Assembly: GCA_030750865.1 (NCBI GenBank)
Contig: JASMHE010000010.1
Location: 1 to 64,000 of the forward strand
Origin: Alphaproteobacteria bacterium
GTDB lineage: Bacteria; Pseudomonadota; Alphaproteobacteria; Micavibrionales; Micavibrionaceae
Direction of reading: 5' to 3'
Length of the DNA: 64,000 nt
The notes below the pieces were generated by a model, which was not told where the DNA came from, made no database searches, and saw nothing but the letters and a program-made list of their open reading frames with translations. Numbering within the stretch: the first letter of the stretch is position 1; the number at the start of each line of letters is the position of its first letter. The position numbers were made by a program, and so were the translations under genes. Shown in pieces: positions 7,976 through 15,814 of this stretch.

Positions 7976-9838
7976 ATGAAGGAAATAAGCTTTAAAGATT
8001 TTATCGATATCTCACAGCCCTTTACCCTGATTGAAAAGCGCGGCCATGTGTCGTGCTATCAGGGGGCTGTGCATCATCTTGAAGCCCTTGATGATATTCA
8101 TCACTTATCGGAACAATCGGAAACGGATGTTGTTTTTGCGCTGCCATACCGCGTTATTCGTGAGCGCGGTTTTGAAGCCAAAGGCGATGAACCGATTCTG
8201 GCGATGACGGTCGAGCGTTGCCTGACGTTGCGCCGTGAAGATTTTATTCATCAACTGGACGATATACCGGTGACGGTCGATGCGGATATCACGCCGTCAA
8301 TGTCTGATGCGGCGTATGCTGAAATGATTGCGGCATTCCAGACAAATGAAATTGAAGGCGGTAATGCGTCGCAAACAACATTGTCACGCTATTTCAGCGG
8401 GACGTTGAATGATTTCGATATGGATGTCTTGCTCAGCGTGTATCGCAGACTGTTATGCTCGCGTGGGCAATATATGACGGTGCTGTTTGCCAATGTGCCG
8501 GATGAGCAATATATCGTGGGCGCGACGCCGGAACGTCATCTGGAAATCACCGGTAATGAAAGTATCATGGTACCGATCGCAGGCACGCTGCGTAAGGGCG
8601 AAGGCAAAGGTAAGGCCGATTTCGAACAGCGCCTGGATGCCTTCTTAAATGATCCGAAAGAAATCAATGAGCTGTTTCAGGTTATGGATGAAGAAATGAA
8701 GCTCATGGGCACGATCGCGCCCGAAGGCGGCACAATCTATGGCCCTTATATGCGTGAAATCGGGGCTGTCGTGCATACGGAATATGAATTGGTCGGCAAG
8801 CGCTGCCTGCATTCGATGGATGCGCTGCGCCTGTCTGTGCATGCACCGACTGTTGTCGGCTCGCCGATGGAAAGCGCTGCGCGTATCATTCATAAATATG
8901 AACCGGAATCGCGCCGTTACTATTCCGGTGAGTTCGGTCTTTATACGCGGGCCCGTAATAAACAGGTCAATGGCGATCTGGATACGGCTATTTTGATCCG
9001 TAGTGCTGAAATCAATGGTGAAGGCGTCTTCCGTATTCAGGCGGGGGGCGGTTTGGTGCGTGATTCCGTACCGGAAGAAGAAGCCAAAGAAAGCCGCGCC
9101 AAAGCAATGGGGATGCTTGGCATTCTGACGGGGGCGGCCGTAACATCTGAAAGCTACATGACCGATGAGCTCATGGCGAAGTATGAACCTGTTTTACAGG
9201 CGCGCAATGCCTATCTGTCTCCGTTTTGGCAAACAAAGCAAAATAAATATGAAAGCGCGGTCCGTGATCTGAACGGGTTGAAAATATCGATCGTGAATAA
9301 CGAAGATGACTTTGCTCATATGATCGGCCATATGATCCGCACATCACATGCCGATGTGCGTGTGACAGACACGTTTGACTATGATTATGATGGTGATGAC
9401 TGTGATATCCTTGTGCTGGGGCCGGGGCCGGGCGATCCGAATGACCGCAATCATCCCCGTATGGCCAAATTGCATGCGATTGCCGAAAAGGCGCTGGCGG
9501 CGGGCAAGCCTGTACTGGGTGTGTGTCTGGGGCATCAGGTGCTTGCCATTCAGCACGATATTGCTGTGGAACAACAGCACCAGTCAACACAGGGCATGCA
9601 GCGTGATGTGAGCGTGTTTGGTGAAATGCGTAAGCTGGGCTTTTATAATTCTTTCTCGCCGGTTTACGATGCGGCACTGGATGACCGTGCTGATTTTGCG
9701 TACGATCTGGACGATAAAAACCGTTTGATTGCCATGCGTGGCCGTGGGTTTGTCGGGTTCCAGTTTCACCCTGAATCCGTCATGTCGTACGATGGCTATG
9801 ACTTGCTGTGTGACGCGCTGATTTCCCTGATAAAATAA
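7976..9838 (+). CDS. PhzE-like fused chorismate aminase (anthranilate/ADIC synthase family, with glutamine amidotransferase domain)
   Basis: This family uses glutamine-derived ammonia to aminate chorismate, giving 2-amino-2-deoxyisochorismate (PhzE) or anthranilate (TrpE-TrpG fusions). The 620-residue protein has a chorismate-utilising domain (about 1-410) and a class I glutamine amidotransferase domain (about 430-620) with Cys517 in GVCLGHQ and His598/Glu600 in FHPES. The stretch DPKEINELFQVMDEEMKLM, the HTEYELVG motif and the SPMESA/RYYSG motifs follow PhzE rather than TrpE, which carries VDLARND at that place. The N-terminus lacks the TrpE tryptophan-binding LLES motif. No phz or trp genes are nearby, so the product and pathway are unknown. 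Start fixed by TAGGAGA. Confidence 0.85.
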   Translation: MKEISFKDFIDISQPFTLIEKRGHVSCYQGAVHHLEALDDIHHLSEQSETDVVFALPYRVIRERGFEAKGDEPILAMTVERCLTLRREDFIHQLDDIPVTVDADITPSMSDAAYAEMIAAFQTNEIEGGNASQTTLSRYFSGTLNDFDMDVLLSVYRRLLCSRGQYMTVLFANVPDEQYIVGATPERHLEITGNESIMVPIAGTLRKGEGKGKADFEQRLDAFLNDPKEINELFQVMDEEMKLMGTIAPEGGTIYGPYMREIGAVVHTEYELVGKRCLHSMDALRLSVHAPTVVGSPMESAARIIHKYEPESRRYYSGEFGLYTRARNKQVNGDLDTAILIRSAEINGEGVFRIQAGGGLVRDSVPEEEAKESRAKAMGMLGILTGAAVTSESYMTDELMAKYEPVLQARNAYLSPFWQTKQNKYESAVRDLNGLKISIVNNEDDFAHMIGHMIRTSHADVRVTDTFDYDYDGDDCDILVLGPGPGDPNDRNHPRMAKLHAIAEKALAAGKPVLGVCLGHQVLAIQHDIAVEQQHQSTQGMQRDVSVFGEMRKLGFYNSFSPVYDAALDDRADFAYDLDDKNRLIAMRGRGFVGFQFHPESVMSYDGYDLLCDALISLIK

Positions 9839-9862: not shown

Positions 9863-9890
9863 TTGCAATGAGAATGATTCTCACTATTAT
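9863..9890 (+). promoter_or_regulatory. Promoter of the giant repeat protein gene, with a Fur box inside its spacer
   Basis: TTGCAA (9863-9868) and TATTAT (9885-9890) are separated by 16 bp. The first Fur-type palindrome fills the spacer almost exactly, so a bound repressor would block RNA polymerase. Confidence 0.6.
9869..9883. promoter_or_regulatory. Fur box 1 (perfect 7-1-7 palindrome)
   Basis: TGAGAATGATTCTCA is a perfect 7-1-7 inverted repeat matching the classical Fur/iron-box core. It lies between the -35 and -10 elements of the downstream gene. Confidence 0.8.
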
Positions 9891-9901
9891 GGTCGTGAAT
9901 T

Positions 9902-9916
9902 TAAGAATCGTTCTCA
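9902..9916. promoter_or_regulatory. Fur box 2 (imperfect 7-1-7 palindrome)
   Basis: TAAGAATCGTTCTCA differs from a perfect inverted repeat at one position per arm. It sits about 18 bp after box 1, near or just after the predicted transcription start. Confidence 0.65.
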
Positions 9917-9931
9917 TTTAGGGTGTTGTAA

Positions 9932-12900
9932 GTGTCTTCTGATGTAAGTGCATATAGAGCGGATTTTGAAACGCAATCAATGTTGGATAACGCAGCGTCA
10001 GTCATGGCGTCGGCCGACAAATCTGTTGCCAGAGAGGCAATGGAAAATGACGGTGCGGTGGGTGTCTGGATGCGTGAAACGCCGGCTGATGTGCAACGTG
10101 CTGTCAATGATGCAATTTCATATGCCGTATCAGGGCATGTTTCGATGAAGCTTGTGACCCGTGGTGAGCCATCCGCTGTTGCCTCCGAAATTATGACGCA
10201 ATTACTCAGCCGTTTTCCGGCCTCTTATCACGACGCCGTGCGTGCAATGGGGCAGGATGTGATGAACCGCCTGTGTGATTATTGCGAAAGCAGCAAATCA
10301 AACGGTGTGTCAGCCCGCTTTGAATTCAGAACAAAAATGGTTGAAAATCTGCCGGGATTCGAGTGCAAGCAATACAGTATCTCGACGTTTGCCCACAGCA
10401 ATAATGCGGCGTTTCAGGCGTCGCAATTCGCTGATAAGTTTGCGTCTCATCAGGTCCAGCAATTTAACCCGAGTTGGGTCGGAACGACAACAGGATCTCA
10501 GGATCTCAGCGAATATATGGCGCTGGGTGATAACCCGCATTTCTTGTTCGTGGTTGGATCTGTGTCTCTGGATGATTTGAACGAACACGAGCAGGATACC
10601 GAACTTGATATGGTACGCGCATTGGCCAGTGAAGCCGGTGGTGGCGGCGCGGCCGAAGCAGGTGAAGATGCTGATTTGATGCAGGAACTCTTGCAGGCAC
10701 TGGCCGAAGGCGGAGAGCTTTCGCCCGAAGCGGCCGAGGCAATGATGGCATTGGTGGAAGAAATGGCCGCGCTGGAAAAAGCCATTGATGGTGTGACCCC
10801 TGACAATGTGACAGAGCAGCAAGAAGAAGCGATTGCTGAAATTTCCGAGAACATCGAGCAAATCCTCATGGATTGTGAAGCTGCCGGTATTGAAGTGCCT
10901 GCGGCGTTGGCTGATGTTGCGGAATCAAAAATCGAAAAAGCGGCAGATCGGGTTTATCCTGACTCTGAAGCATCAATGGATATGGACGCAGATATGTCGG
11001 CTGACGCAAGTGATGCCGAACCGATGGATATTGCCGCCGATGATGGTGCGGATGTTGATGCCGCTGATGCGGATTCTGCAGATGTTACCGCCGCTGAAGA
11101 GAGTATAGATGCAGACGCTGCCGATATCGATGGTGAGGCTGTTGAGGTCGAAGCGGATGTAGAAATGGATGATACGCCCGAGGCTGATGCGGCGGACGTA
11201 ACAGCGGATGATCAGGATGTCGCCGTTGATGAAGATGCGCCAGCGCAACAGGACGCCGCGGCAGACGATGTTGCTGCCGATGATGTTGACGCGCAAGACA
11301 CAGGCGCTGACGCCGTTGCCGAGAATGAAGAGGAGGCCCCAGCTGCAGACGCACCTGACGGACCTGCGGATCAGGATGGAACGGCTGGGAAAACAGAACA
11401 ATCATCGCAAGCGGATGACGTGGCGGCCGATAGTCTGGTTGCTGAAGCTGCCACTGTCGATGCTGTTGATGGACCTGCGGAAATTGTGGCTGATGATGGT
11501 GCGCCTTCGGCACCGGAAGCGCCAGAAGCATCTGAGCCAGCCGTCGCTGACAGCGGTGCGTCTGACGTTGCTGCCGAGAGCATGATACAGGATTCAGGCG
11601 ACCAGCCAGCCGCGGCGAGTGCGGAGACCGTTGACGTCAGTGCACTGGACGCTCCGGAAGGGGTTGAACCAGCCGTCGCTGACAGCGGTGCGTCTGACGT
11701 TGCTGCCGAGAGCATGATACAGGATTCAGGCGATCAGCCAGCTGCTGCGAGTGCGGAGACTGTTGAAGCCAGTGCGCCGGACGCTCCGGAAGGGGCTGAG
11801 CCAGTCGCCGCTGACAGCGGTGCATCTGATGTTGCTGCCGAGAGCATGATACAGGATTCAGGCGACCAGCCAGCTACGGCGAGTGCGGAGACCGTTGAAG
11901 CCAGCGCGCCGGACGCGGCAGAAGCATCTGAGCCAGCTGCATCTGACAGCGGCGCATCCGAGGTTGCTGCCGAGAGCATGGTGCAGGATTCAGGCGACCA
12001 GCCAGCTACGGCGAGTGTGGATACCGTTGAAGCCAGCGCGCCGGACGCGCCGGAAGCATCTGAACCAGCTGCCGCTGACAGCGGAGCATCTGATGTTGCT
12101 GCCGAGAGCATGATACAGGATTCAGGCGATCAGCCATCTGCGACGAGCGCGGACGCACCATCTGCGGAAACGCCGTCAGCGGAAACGCCGTCAGCGGAAA
12201 CACCATCTGCGGAAGCGCCATCAGTGGAAACACCATCTGCGGAAACACCATCTGCGGAAACGCCGTCAGTGGAAACGCCATCAGCGGAAGCGCCATCAGT
12301 GGAAACACCATCAGCGGAAGCGCCATCAGTGGAAACGCCATCAGCGGAAGCGCCATCAGTGGACACGCCGTCAGCGGAAGCGCCGTCAGTGGAAACGCCA
12401 TCAGTGGACACGCCGTCAGTGGACACGCCGTCAGTGGAAACGCCGTCAGTGGAAACACCGTCAGCGGAAGCGCCGTCAGCGGAAGTGCCGTCAGTGGAAA
12501 CGCCATCAGCGGAAGCGCCATCGGTAGAAGCGCCATCGGTAGAAACGCCATCATCGACTGTGTCGGCGCCGCAACCGTCCGCATCTGCGGCATCAGCCAC
12601 ATCTTTTGCAACGTCCGCACCTGTAAATAATAATAGCGCTCCCGCACAGTCTGCACCTGCCGCGGCGCAACCGCAATCACAAGCTCCGCAGCAACCGACA
12701 GCCAGTCAGCCGCAGGCGCAAGCGCCACAACAACCACAGGCACAACAATCACAGAAGCCGCAAGCGCAACAGCAGCCTGCGCAGAATAATTCTGCTCCGG
12801 CAGCGGCACAGCAAAAACCTGTTGCCCCGGCACAGAAGGCACAAGCGCCGCAGCAACCACAGGCACAAAAGCCGCAGGTACAAGCACAACAGAAGCCACA

Positions 12901-13444
12901 AGCGGCCGAACCGCAGAAGCCACAAACGCCGCAAGCACAGCAAGTGAAGGCGGAGGCGCCGCAACAACAGCAAGCGCAGCCACAGCAAACTGTGCGTCAG
13001 GATGCGCCCGCTGCAGCTACGATGGCGGCAAGCGCAACTGCGGAAGCACCGCAAGCGCCAGCGGGTGTGCAGCAATCCGGCACAGATGCATCGGCCATGA
13101 ATGCGGCTTCAACGGATGTGCCGCAGCAGAGCGCCGCAGCGCAGTCAACACCAGTTCCGGAGCCGGAGGTGATTGATATTGCGGTTGTAAGCGAGAATAC
13201 AGCGCCATCATCATCTGGTCCGACACTATGGACGCGTGAGGATATTGATGCCCATAAAGCCGAGCATGGTACATCTGCCGCCAATGAAGTTGATCCTGCA
13301 GGAGGCTGTGGTGGTAAAAGCTGTGCAAGTTGCGGGGAATGTTTTGCGTCTGCTGTTTCTGGCGATGACCCGGAGATAGCGGCCAAGCTTGCGGAAAGTA
13401 AAGCGAGTCTTGAAAACGATCTGATGCATCTGAAAGTGGCATAA
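9932..13444 (+). CDS. Large, acidic, repeat-rich protein with cysteine motifs; Fur-box promoter; unknown function
   Basis: I do not recognise this 1170-residue protein. Parts in order: an N-terminal possibly folded region (about 1-230) with a CDYC motif (115-118); an acidic/helical region (about 230-340); an Asp/Ala-rich acidic stretch (about 340-530); five 44-residue tandem repeats (from 535, the last partial) of the type DSGASDVAAESMIQDSGDQP; 26 pentapeptides PS(A/V)(E/D)(T/A) (743-872); a Pro/Gln/Ala-rich stretch (about 895-1025); and a short C-terminal domain with Cys1126, 1131, 1134 and 1137 in CGGKSCASCGEC. There is no signal peptide or membrane segment. The start codon is a GTG preceded by AGGGTG; an ATG at residue 17 is possible. 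Two Fur boxes in the promoter suggest iron repression. The Cx4Cx2C spacing is like the plant-type [2Fe-2S] loop, so metal or Fe-S binding is a reasonable inference, not shown. Confidence 0.8.
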   Translation: MSSDVSAYRADFETQSMLDNAASVMASADKSVAREAMENDGAVGVWMRETPADVQRAVNDAISYAVSGHVSMKLVTRGEPSAVASEIMTQLLSRFPASYHDAVRAMGQDVMNRLCDYCESSKSNGVSARFEFRTKMVENLPGFECKQYSISTFAHSNNAAFQASQFADKFASHQVQQFNPSWVGTTTGSQDLSEYMALGDNPHFLFVVGSVSLDDLNEHEQDTELDMVRALASEAGGGGAAEAGEDADLMQELLQALAEGGELSPEAAEAMMALVEEMAALEKAIDGVTPDNVTEQQEEAIAEISENIEQILMDCEAAGIEVPAALADVAESKIEKAADRVYPDSEASMDMDADMSADASDAEPMDIAADDGADVDAADADSADVTAAEESIDADAADIDGEAVEVEADVEMDDTPEADAADVTADDQDVAVDEDAPAQQDAAADDVAADDVDAQDTGADAVAENEEEAPAADAPDGPADQDGTAGKTEQSSQADDVAADSLVAEAATVDAVDGPAEIVADDGAPSAPEAPEASEPAVADSGASDVAAESMIQDSGDQPAAASAETVDVSALDAPEGVEPAVADSGASDVAAESMIQDSGDQPAAASAETVEASAPDAPEGAEPVAADSGASDVAAESMIQDSGDQPATASAETVEASAPDAAEASEPAASDSGASEVAAESMVQDSGDQPATASVDTVEASAPDAPEASEPAAADSGASDVAAESMIQDSGDQPSATSADAPSAETPSAETPSAETPSAEAPSVETPSAETPSAETPSVETPSAEAPSVETPSAEAPSVETPSAEAPSVDTPSAEAPSVETPSVDTPSVDTPSVETPSVETPSAEAPSAEVPSVETPSAEAPSVEAPSVETPSSTVSAPQPSASAASATSFATSAPVNNNSAPAQSAPAAAQPQSQAPQQPTASQPQAQAPQQPQAQQSQKPQAQQQPAQNNSAPAAAQQKPVAPAQKAQAPQQPQAQKPQVQAQQKPQAAEPQKPQTPQAQQVKAEAPQQQQAQPQQTVRQDAPAAATMAASATAEAPQAPAGVQQSGTDASAMNAASTDVPQQSAAAQSTPVPEPEVIDIAVVSENTAPSSSGPTLWTREDIDAHKAEHGTSAANEVDPAGGCGGKSCASCGECFASAVSGDDPEIAAKLAESKASLENDLMHLKVA
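11534..12157 (+). repeat. Tandem 132-bp coding repeats (four full copies plus a partial fifth)
   Basis: Units begin at 11534, 11666, 11798, 11930 and 12062. Each encodes 44 residues starting EP(A/V)(V/A)(A/S)DSGAS. They stay in frame and are highly similar in DNA, indicating recent duplication inside the large repeat protein gene. Confidence 0.92.
12158..12547 (+). repeat. 26 tandem 15-bp coding repeats (pentapeptide PSxEx)
   Basis: The array is 390 bp of in-frame 15-bp units such as CCGTCAGTGGAAACG, encoding PSAET, PSVET, PSAEA or PSVDT. It is likely disordered, negatively charged and prone to copy-number change by slippage. Confidence 0.95.
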
Positions 13445-13622
13445 GATTTATCTGTAAACCTGATCTGATGACGGATTATGTGTTGTCTATGTTCCGATAT
13501 CGTGGTGTGTCGCGCTTGATGTGTTTTATCGCCTGAGGCATACGCAATCATTTCTTTCGATATGCTTATTTGAAACGGCGATCTGCCTATTTCTTATGTC
13601 TGGCATGATATTTGTGTGAGAT

Positions 13623-13656
13623 GAAAAGCGCCCCGTCTGTGTGTACAGAAGGGGCG
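13623..13656 (-). terminator. Terminator of the nfu-like gene
   Basis: CGCCCCGTCTGT (13629-13640) pairs with ACAGAAGGGGCG (13645-13656) with one mismatch. On the minus strand it is followed by GCTTTT, fitting termination of the convergent nfu-like gene. It may also serve the plus-strand gene. Confidence 0.75.
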
Positions 13657-13688
13657 TTGTTAGGACTGTGTGTTGTGTATCAGCCGGA

Positions 13689-14369
13689 TTAAGCGATGGT
13701 CGGTTTGCCGCTGTTCTGTGCAGGATCGTACATCAGCAAATTCCCCAGCGTATATTTCGGTTGATCGGGGTATAGTTTTGCCGCTTGTTCAAATGCATCA
13801 GAGAGGTTCTTTCTGGCAAATTTCGCTGTGATACCGGATGATGACGGGCATCCGGAGCACGCACCCGTGACCGAGATGTGCACGTCAACTTCGCCGTTGT
13901 GGTCATCGACTTTCAAGACTTCCATGCGTCCGCCATGTCCGGCTGTCATGCGGCTGACACTGTTGAATGCGGCTGATACCACTTGTTCCAGAAATGTTTG
14001 GGGGATGAAGCGGTTTTGATATTGGTCTTGTTTTAACAGTTCTTTTTCATCGGCCAGTTTGTAATTTTCAAGCTTTAAGGCGTGTTCCAGAACGGTCTGG
14101 ATATATTCTTTGTAAGGTTCAGGCCATTGTGTGCCGCCGCGGCGGAGTGTGATCTGGTCACCCTTATCGTCAATCGCTTTTGATAATGTGACGCTGTATG
14201 TACGCAGTTTTTCTTCGCCGAAGAAATGTTTTGCGATTTCGAACCCGTTCAGGTCGTCTTTGGCTGTGACGGTGTGTGTGTCCAGAGATTCCAGAATATT
14301 GACGCCGAGATAAAAGCTGATCGCAGTCGGATTTTTGTCTTCGGATTCTGCATTATATTGCACAGTCAT
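13689..14369 (-). CDS. NifU C-terminal-domain (Nfu) iron-sulfur carrier; Fur-box promoter
   Basis: Nfu proteins hold a [4Fe-4S] or [2Fe-2S] cluster at the interface of a CxxC dimer and deliver it to client enzymes in the cytoplasm. The 226-residue protein has a long N-terminal part (about 1-120) of the Nfu_N-like type, with residues FLGV/YLGVNILESLDT and the block EIAKHFFGEEKLRTYSVT. The C-terminal NifU domain contains the signature GACSGCPSSSGITAKF with the cluster cysteines. The start is supported by AAGGGTG upstream of the ATG. A Fur-type box lies 20 bp upstream of the start, matching the pair of boxes at the convergent large repeat gene. No isc or suf genes are close. Confidence 0.88.
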   Translation of the reverse strand: MTVQYNAESEDKNPTAISFYLGVNILESLDTHTVTAKDDLNGFEIAKHFFGEEKLRTYSVTLSKAIDDKGDQITLRRGGTQWPEPYKEYIQTVLEHALKLENYKLADEKELLKQDQYQNRFIPQTFLEQVVSAAFNSVSRMTAGHGGRMEVLKVDDHNGEVDVHISVTGACSGCPSSSGITAKFARKNLSDAFEQAAKLYPDQPKYTLGNLLMYDPAQNSGKPTIA

Positions 14370-14388
14370 GGCCGCACCCTTTTTTCTT

Positions 14389-14403
14389 TGAGAATGATTG
14401 TCA
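14389..14403. promoter_or_regulatory. Fur box 3, upstream of the nfu-like gene
   Basis: TGAGAATGATTGTCA has one mismatch between its 7-bp arms and is nearly identical to Fur box 1. On the minus strand it lies about 27 bp after a TTGCAA (14431-14436), where the -10/+1 region of the nfu-like gene should be. Confidence 0.7.
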
Positions 14404-15175: not shown

Positions 15176-15814
15176 ATGGACAAGCAATGGCTGGAAACAC
15201 AATTTCGTTTAAACCCCGAGAAAACAAAGGCTGCGTTGGCAAAGGCGCTGAATCTTGAACCGCCGGCAATCAGTAAAATGTTAAGCGGGACGCGGCAAAT
15301 CAAAGCGGCCGAATACGTGGGTATGCGTAAATTCTTCGGTATGACAACAGAATCAGGTCAGGCAAAGCCTTATCTGGAGCGGGCCTATCAGGTTAAGCCG
15401 TTACAGACGCAAGCGCAGGCGCAGGCGCTGTATGATAGTCGCGCAGACGGTGGTATAAAAGAGGCCGAGGCACAGGATACATGGGTGATGCCAGCGTCCT
15501 TTTTTGAAAAACGCACGCAGGCGCCGGCCGAGAAAATCCGCTTTTTCGAAGTGAAAGACAAAGCCATGATGCCCGATATAGATGCGGGAGATCATGTGCT
15601 GGTTGATTTATCGGACAAGAAGCCGTCACCGGCAGGGCTGTTTGTCTTGTATGACGGTATCGGGACGGTTATCCGCCAGTGTGAGTTTATTCCCCAGTCC
15701 GATCCGCTGAAGCTGCGCATATCGGCGCACAATAGCCAGTTCCGCTCCTATCAGGTGGAGTTCGATAAAACAGAAATATTGGGCCGCGTGATCGCCCGTA
15801 TGGAATGGCTTTGA
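15176..15814 (+). CDS. LexA/CI-like HTH regulator with an S24-type domain lacking the catalytic serine
   Basis: The 212-residue protein has an N-terminal DNA-binding helix-turn-helix region (about 15-55, KAALAKALNLEPPAISKMLSG) and a C-terminal LexA/S24-like domain (about 118-205). At the site where self-cleaving repressors have Ser-Met-x-Pro, this protein has Ala130-Met-Met-Pro133. The catalytic Lys region reads TVIRQ (164-168), with no Lys. It should therefore dimerise but not cleave itself. The promoter gap is shared with the divergent Xre gene. No clear ribosome site precedes the ATG at 15176. It could respond to a ligand rather than to RecA; its target is unknown. Confidence 0.82.
   Translation: MDKQWLETQFRLNPEKTKAALAKALNLEPPAISKMLSGTRQIKAAEYVGMRKFFGMTTESGQAKPYLERAYQVKPLQTQAQAQALYDSRADGGIKEAEAQDTWVMPASFFEKRTQAPAEKIRFFEVKDKAMMPDIDAGDHVLVDLSDKKPSPAGLFVLYDGIGTVIRQCEFIPQSDPLKLRISAHNSQFRSYQVEFDKTEILGRVIARMEWL

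Follow-up and report, generated by a model that had tools for sequence, protein, structure and literature searches.

Gene organization of the locus

We analyzed a 64,000-nt stretch of contig JASMHE010000010.1 (hereafter, the window) from a 2.19-Mb alphaproteobacterial genome, labeled G000, and focused on two convergent genes within it. The first, which we call AB, encodes a giant protein with a low-complexity arm and a C-terminal cluster of four cysteines (Cys4). The second, D, encodes a second Nfu, a carrier of iron-sulfur (Fe-S) clusters. The two genes are arranged tail-to-tail with a gap of 244 bp, and candidate sites for the regulator Fur precede both of them (Table 1). An earlier interpretation, made from the DNA letters and their translations (the sequence-only reading), had called this convergent pair and three Fur-type palindromes; both reading frames are open, and the palindromes scored 12/12, 10/12, and 12/12 where it had placed them.

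Table 1. Features of the AB–D locus in the window
Feature	Position	Strand	Description
AB	9932-13444	+	GTG start, 1170 aa, ORF open
D	13689-14369	-	ATG start, 226 aa, ORF open; divergent second Nfu, NifU domain with CxxC (C171, C174)
AB N-terminal conserved region, residues 1-235	9932-10636	+	A module and beginning of B; two genes in several relatives
AB low-complexity arm, residues 236-1090	10637-13201	+	Ala-rich and strongly acidic; tandem repeats
AB C-terminal Cys4 cluster, residues 1126-1137	13307-13342	+	CGGKSCASCGEC, C-x4-C-x2-C-x2-C
Fur box 1	9869-9883	.	TGAGAATGATTCTCA, 12/12; perfect 7-1-7 palindrome within promoter spacer
Fur-type site 2	9902-9916	.	TAAGAATCGTTCTCA, 10/12; weaker
Fur box of D	14389-14403	.	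TGAGAATGATTGTCA, 12/12; ~20 nt before D ATG
Promoter-like hexamers TTGCAA / TATTAT	9863-9890	+	16-nt spacer; consensus scan 9/12, not evidence of function

Recurrence of the convergent pair

A search of 58 genomes, including G000, for the NifU family (PF01106) found a second copy in seven, two of which (G043 and G037) scored below the Pfam cut-off. In all seven genomes, the second Nfu was convergent with a long, low-complexity gene whose product has clustered cysteines at its C terminus. A profile search of 142 genomes of the order yielded three more second Nfu copies (G125, G127, and G020), each convergent with AB (3/3); the D genes of G055 and G064 were missed by this search and were found from the AB side. 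Recurrence in related genomes had been proposed as a test of the sequence-only reading, and the pair does recur: counting the window, it is present at 12 loci with an Nfu recognized by profile and at three more with an unproven partner in the same place. The weakest of the 12 recognized partners is that of G055 (E = 0.0019), and that of G020 is a short form of 123 aa.

At 10 of the 15 loci (G049, G043, G037, G125, G127, G055, G059, G064, G030, and G067), the 3′ ends of AB and its partner are no more than 15 bp apart or overlap slightly. The 15 loci are spread over three families of the order, and their neighborhoods mostly differ by eye; G043 and G055 share an obgE-like neighbor. The surroundings of the G059 pair include suf-like genes, one IscR/Rrf2-like gene, and one gene of the Fur family (L105 201-5315; translations read by eye). 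These results indicate that the AB–D pair is a conserved unit and that its linkage is well supported.

Several neighbors were recorded along the way. AB and D of G047 are separated by two small genes (L017 15070-15953), which resemble each other by eye and have no Pfam family. Three genomes have a further gene of 283–286 aa ahead of the unproven convergent partner (L118 9658-10509, L105 7979-8836, and L120 8935-9795), with shared stretches such as FGNTRDPV (by eye) and a Fur-type site of 11/12 before the gene in 3/3. In the window, a fused chorismate-binding and glutamine amidotransferase gene (7976-9838) lies directly upstream of AB; no such fusion was noticed adjoining AB in relatives, although no search was aimed at it. 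Beyond D lies an S24-peptidase-like gene with a weak helix-turn-helix match (15176-15814).

AB-type genes were found in 26 of the 142 genomes of the order, in three families, with two marginal cases (G114 and G085). For the counts below we tabulated 28 loci, 15 with a convergent partner and 13 without. Rows dropped beforehand were G061 and G026-C1 (cut by a contig end; Fur scores 12 and 11), G128-C180 (cut), G085, G114, and G187 (marginal or partly cut), and G052, which has A on one contig and B with C on another. The A gene of G052 was kept among the non-convergent loci in the box scan (14 there, versus 13 in the 28-locus table), and the AB promoter of G026-C4 is lost to a contig end, leaving 14 rather than 15 convergent loci for AB boxes.

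D is a divergent second Nfu

The assignment of the partner as an Nfu-type Fe-S carrier agrees with its sequence. D matched the NifU domain (PF01106) at 34.6 bits against a cut-off of 27, the cysteines of its CxxC motif were invariant in the seven copies first aligned (7/7), and PDB profile searches with D matched NifU-like chains. G000 also carries a canonical Nfu at C8:502893, so D is a second copy. The D profile matched 127 of the 142 genomes, mostly canonical Nfu over approximately positions 13–197 of 231.

In the nine genomes compared that have both proteins, mean between-genome identity was 57% for canonical Nfu (48–67, 36 pairs) versus 19% for D (13–34); G020 was omitted from this comparison on account of its short D. 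D thus resembles canonical NfuA/NifU-type carriers in having a NifU domain with CxxC, alignable over most of its length, but differs from them in being a second copy tied to AB, in its low identity, and in falling below equivalog cut-offs. D has escaped the constraint on a housekeeping Nfu and retains CxxC in the seven copies first aligned.

Fur boxes precede both genes

Fur-type sites were scored against TGANAATNATTNTCA, a motif with 12 fixed positions that equals its own reverse complement. Only the sites at 9869 and 14389 matched all 12 positions in the 64-kb window, in which ten sites scored at least 10. Among 4,500 promoters simulated with a first-order Markov model, none reached 12, 0.2% reached at least 11, and 3.2% reached at least 10; because of this last figure, Fur-type site 2 is weak taken alone. 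Random 280-bp stretches of the studied loci, real sites included, scored at least 12 in 20/3400 and at least 11 in 43/3400. As had been proposed, box 1 lies inside a −35/−10 spacer, the 16 nt between TTGCAA (from 9863) and TATTAT (to 9890). These hexamers are only promoter-like, however, and the call of an AB promoter is soft because the consensus scan gave seven matches versus 3.4 expected.

At AB, a Fur score of at least 11/12 was found in 10 of 14 convergent loci versus 0 of 13 others (P = 1.5e-4; here and below, P values assume independent loci and overstate the support, as the loci are related). On the partner side, the promoter scored at least 10/12 at 10 of 15 loci and at least 11 at seven of 15. 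G000 has a canonical Fur gene (C8:150810, 132.8 bits; canonical meaning more than 120 bits), and, as a check of the motif, a Fur-type site lies directly before its FTR1 iron permease gene (L003 1501-1519; permease 1543-2331). Fur very probably controls both AB and D: relatives have boxes at both genes, G000 has a canonical Fur, and its FTR1 gene is preceded by a Fur-type site.

Fur-family genes were also looked for in ten genomes, a set that left out G127. Seven had a canonical Fur; none was found in G049, G031, and G042, where only Fur-family members of 43–55 bits were present. The pair of G049 has no good Fur box, and the AB loci of G031 and G042 have no Nfu.

AB consists of an N-terminal body, a long acidic arm, and a cysteine tail

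A (about 113–160 aa) and B are separate genes in some relatives and are fused in the window. When N-terminal profiles of the split and fused forms were compared by hhalign without overlap, they matched at E = 2e-4 with a probability of only 46%; larger sets gave 1e-7 (94%) with the window on the split side and 1e-5 (82%) without it. Another hhalign result, in which the window was present in both profiles, was discarded as circular. A profile of the fused form built without the window (A6) found the window AB at E = 2e-5, versus 0.16 for the best shuffle. Judged by these profiles, the split and fused N-terminal parts are related, single profiles barely so.

The arm of the window AB is 25% Ala, with Ser, Glu, Pro, and Asp at 10–11% each; it has 176 acidic versus 13 basic residues and one cysteine in 855 residues. 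Its middle contains tandem repeats of 132 bp (88% matches) and 15 bp (84% matches). The sequence-only reading had named two cysteine motifs in this protein. The C-terminal Cx4Cx2Cx2C is confirmed and, apart from C115/C118, is the only cysteine cluster of the window AB. The N-terminal CxxC (C115 and C118) is present in the window but is not a feature of the family: both cysteines occur in only 4 of 10 aligned A modules, ruling it out as the key site of AB.

No protein scanned reached a cut-off in Pfam (five A, seven AB or B) or NCBIfam (two N-terminal parts); residues 1–243 of AB gave no match in NCBIfam. The one Pfam match of the whole window AB, a resemblance to extensin (PF02095, 46.1 bits versus a cut-off of 105), was confined to residues 743–874 of the repeat and was rejected as a low-complexity look-alike. 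PDB profile searches with AB gave nothing convincing, with a best E of 0.0024 (a designed protein) in one and 0.028 in the other. Among 385 sampled genomes of the class, G000 included, profile A4 found one further, marginal AB-like gene (G187, E = 8e-4), an open frame of 1411 residues with C-terminal CKKDCGNCHAQC; profile A6 found none. The sole match of the AB N-terminal region in a named genome, from Selenomonas (L016), covered 36 residues of an ORF among genes that look by eye like a CRISPR system, and was set aside. A role in anti-phage defense was likewise rejected, as PADLOC assigned 0 families for 5/5 proteins (AB, D, and C, the last described below).

In open-licence literature, with most subscription journals outside it, no such long protein was recognized from titles and abstract openings. 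We call AB new on account of this and of the lack of matches in Pfam, NCBIfam, and PDB for the proteins scanned, large protein databases being outside the scope. Its relatives behind Zur boxes, with other metal-binding tails (described below), suggest an undescribed family of metal-starvation proteins. CIAPIN1/anamorsin has Cys clusters that end a flexible stretch and is served by a cytosolic Fe-S pathway. AB may resemble it in these respects, with a different motif spacing.

The composition of AB would also suit a sensor or scaffold, whose tip reports Fe-S or zinc status or whose arm forms an assembly in starved cells, switched by metal occupancy. The window arm is very acidic and repetitive with few order-promoting residues, and the 28 tabulated proteins range from 511 to 2362 aa; N-terminal bodies are related. 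However, no DNA-binding or signaling domain scored above the Pfam cut-off in the seven AB or B proteins scanned of the 28 tabulated, and a dedicated Nfu would be unusual for a sensor. We regard this explanation as improbable.

Many sister AB genes lie behind Zur boxes

Among the 13 tabulated loci that lack a convergent partner, 10 have another gene, C, after AB; the six C proteins aligned share a C-terminal His and an invariant CC pair. Gene C of G030, a locus with a convergent partner, was called by eye from its CC and CGH motifs and gave no match to the C profile at E 0.001. No gene C was found in viral contigs. A DUF2946 gene precedes AB in G042 (just below cut-off), G128, G037, G125, and G043 by profile match, and in G018, G055, G091, and G003 by eye; it is not specific to AB loci, because it is present in 52 of the 142 genomes.

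A strong Zur box (at least 13/14) lies just before A or AB at seven of the 13 loci without a convergent partner versus 0 of 14 with one (P = 0.002), and five of these seven boxes are exact GTTA-N5-TAAC. Scores of at least 13 occurred in 0.02% of simulated promoters. When 330-bp stretches were drawn at random from the loci, with real sites left in, 26/1650 scored 13 or 14 and one scored 12. In G125, a nearby CobW-like gene (by eye) is also behind a perfect Zur box.

G000 itself has a sister AB on contig C13 (L116 5997-14530). It encodes 898 aa with two CxCxxC copies in the tail and has a Zur score of 13/14, as does a neighboring gene of 162 aa. The cluster also contains an AhpC-like peroxiredoxin, a CobW-type GTPase, an ABC ATPase with an FtsX-type permease, a DUF3299 protein, and a Fur-family regulator, which from its neighbors is presumably Zur. 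The two AB genes of G000 score in opposite directions: Fur 12 and Zur 8 for the window copy versus Fur 8 and Zur 13 for the C13 copy. The sisters of the proposed zinc branch have the same kind of body and arm, with fewer clustered cysteines in the tail, often with His, and no Nfu. With sisters under Zur control, the role of AB-type proteins cannot be confined to iron.

Uptake systems abound in Fur and Zur regulons, and Pro/Ala-rich repeats are common in surface proteins, so that AB might instead be exported and act outside the cell as a protein metallophore for iron or zinc. Yet inspection of the window AB by eye, without a predictor, revealed no evident signal sequence, its linked partner belongs to the Nfu family, which is known as cytosolic, and no recurring export gene was noticed beside AB when neighboring ORFs were read by eye, with no search aimed at export genes. 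Export is thus a very improbable explanation.

Related regulation is described in Caulobacter. In PMC3751524, on the Fur regulon and iron response, Fur boxes are reported at iron-responsive promoters and the NFU gene CC_0062 is tabulated at 4.60-fold under Fe-S cluster assembly/repair. What sets the locus studied here apart is a giant protein accompanied by a second Nfu that is dedicated to it and lies behind a Fur box of its own. For the Zur regulon, passages of PMC4176598 report GTTA-N5-TAAC sites, a COG0523 protein, and DUF2946 proteins among metal-responsive genes. The sister AB loci are similar in all three respects, with the difference that no AB-type long protein appears in those passages.

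The cysteine tail follows the partner

We scored a tail as Cys4 when four cysteines fell within 14 residues in the last 260. By this rule, a Cys4 tail is present at 15/15 loci with a convergent partner versus 0/13 without one (P = 3e-8). Five genomes have both kinds of AB (G000, G037, G043, G055, and G125); in each of them Cys4 is confined, among the tabulated copies, to the convergent one, a contrast that does not rest on P values. A mixed motif, HxCx(2-3)CxH, occurs at 7 of 14 loci with gene C versus 0 of 14 without it (6 of 13 versus 1 of 15 when G030 is excluded from the former). In G047, G059, and G030, AB has gene C as well as a convergent partner, and its tail contains Cys4 together with the mixed motif. 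The association of the Cys4 tail with the convergent partner strengthens the link of AB to Fe-S metabolism; a functional connection of this tail to D is probable.

Mere co-regulation, with AB and D under shared Fur control but never in contact and with the low-complexity body as filler that drifts fast, would account for the separate promoters and for the poor conservation of D (19% mean identity). It sits badly with a convergent order kept at 15 loci of three families in neighborhoods that mostly differ by eye, and with a tail type that follows the partner type within one genome; we give it little credence. Some tails have repeated motifs: Cys4 occurs twice in those of G026, G020, and G067, and CxCxxC twice in that of the C13 protein. 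Such repeats favor another explanation, that AB is a reserve or sponge for iron, or for zinc in the Zur branch, released from proteins degraded in starvation, with D only loading it and no directed delivery. A long arm with few sites suits such a diffuse binder. A few small sites on 511–2362 residues would nevertheless make a poor store, and the match between tail type and convergent partner points to a specific exchange, making a sponge unlikely.

A dedicated Nfu for the Cys4 tip of AB is the interpretation that we prefer, and, in addition to P values that overstate the support, several points weigh against it. The Cys4 rule was chosen after the tails had been seen, and a 15-residue window would make the AB of G031, which has a Zur box and no Nfu, a Cys4 protein. 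The pair is kept without good Fur boxes in G049 and G127, and G043 and G055 have Fur scores of only 10 at AB and of 9 and 8, respectively, at the partner. The convergent partners of G059, G030, and G067 could not be proven to be Nfu (E = 0.07, 0.006, and 2.2, with 0.06 for the best shuffle). D itself scored 14 bits against the NfuA equivalog TIGR03341 (cut-off 269) and gave no match to the Pfam Nfu_N domain up to E 1. AlphaFold models made without an alignment had a mean pLDDT of 43 for D and 34 for AB 1–235, too low to use. On the zinc side, 6 of the 13 non-convergent loci have no strong Zur box, G064 has both partners and lacks the mixed Cys/His motif, and the thresholds for the Zur motif, like those for the Fur motif, were set after the sequences had been seen.

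A proposed iron-starvation system

With iron, Fur represses its targets, and Nfu carries Fe-S clusters on its CxxC and passes them to clients. The sequence-only reading had taken the pair for an iron-sparing or Fe-S repair system; it is partly supported, through the Fur boxes, the recurrence of the pair, and the Fe-S link, and a sparing or repair role is a possible one. We propose that AB and D form an iron-starvation system derepressed through Fur, in which the tip of AB carries a metal or Fe-S site attended by an Nfu of its own, within a wider family for iron and zinc. Taken as a whole, this proposal falls somewhat short of an even chance. Its regulation and linkage are well supported; we infer its chemistry, as well as derepression, a cytosolic site for AB, cluster binding, transfer between D and AB, and a benefit to clients.

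When iron runs short, Fur would leave its boxes and both AB and D would be made. D, as a paralog of the housekeeping Nfu, would be free to diverge and to work with one partner. The globular N-terminal part of AB may tether the protein to some cell component, and a long acidic arm rich in Ala and Pro would present the four-cysteine site on its end. D would load this site with an Fe-S cluster or iron, or take it from there, and scarce clusters would thereby be gathered and passed to chosen clients, or held where needed. In the zinc branch, the sisters, many of them behind Zur boxes, would act with a different tail and without Nfu.

More tentatively, AB may define a new class of long-armed intracellular metal handlers, used by bacteria under starvation, with one paralog per metal: an iron branch with Fur, Cys4, and a captive Nfu that evolves fast, and a zinc branch with Zur, a Cys-His tail, and protein C, in which a swap of tip and partner changes the metal. 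Known bacterial answers to iron or zinc shortage are uptake, sparing, and substitution. If the proposal is true, cells would handle the metal in short supply internally, on a long arm, with a giant protein for each metal that has its own tip chemistry and partner; this would be a different answer to starvation, and a paralog of Nfu would gain a concrete, testable client. The swaps of tip and partner that occur naturally would then serve as a ready-made test of what determines metal specificity.

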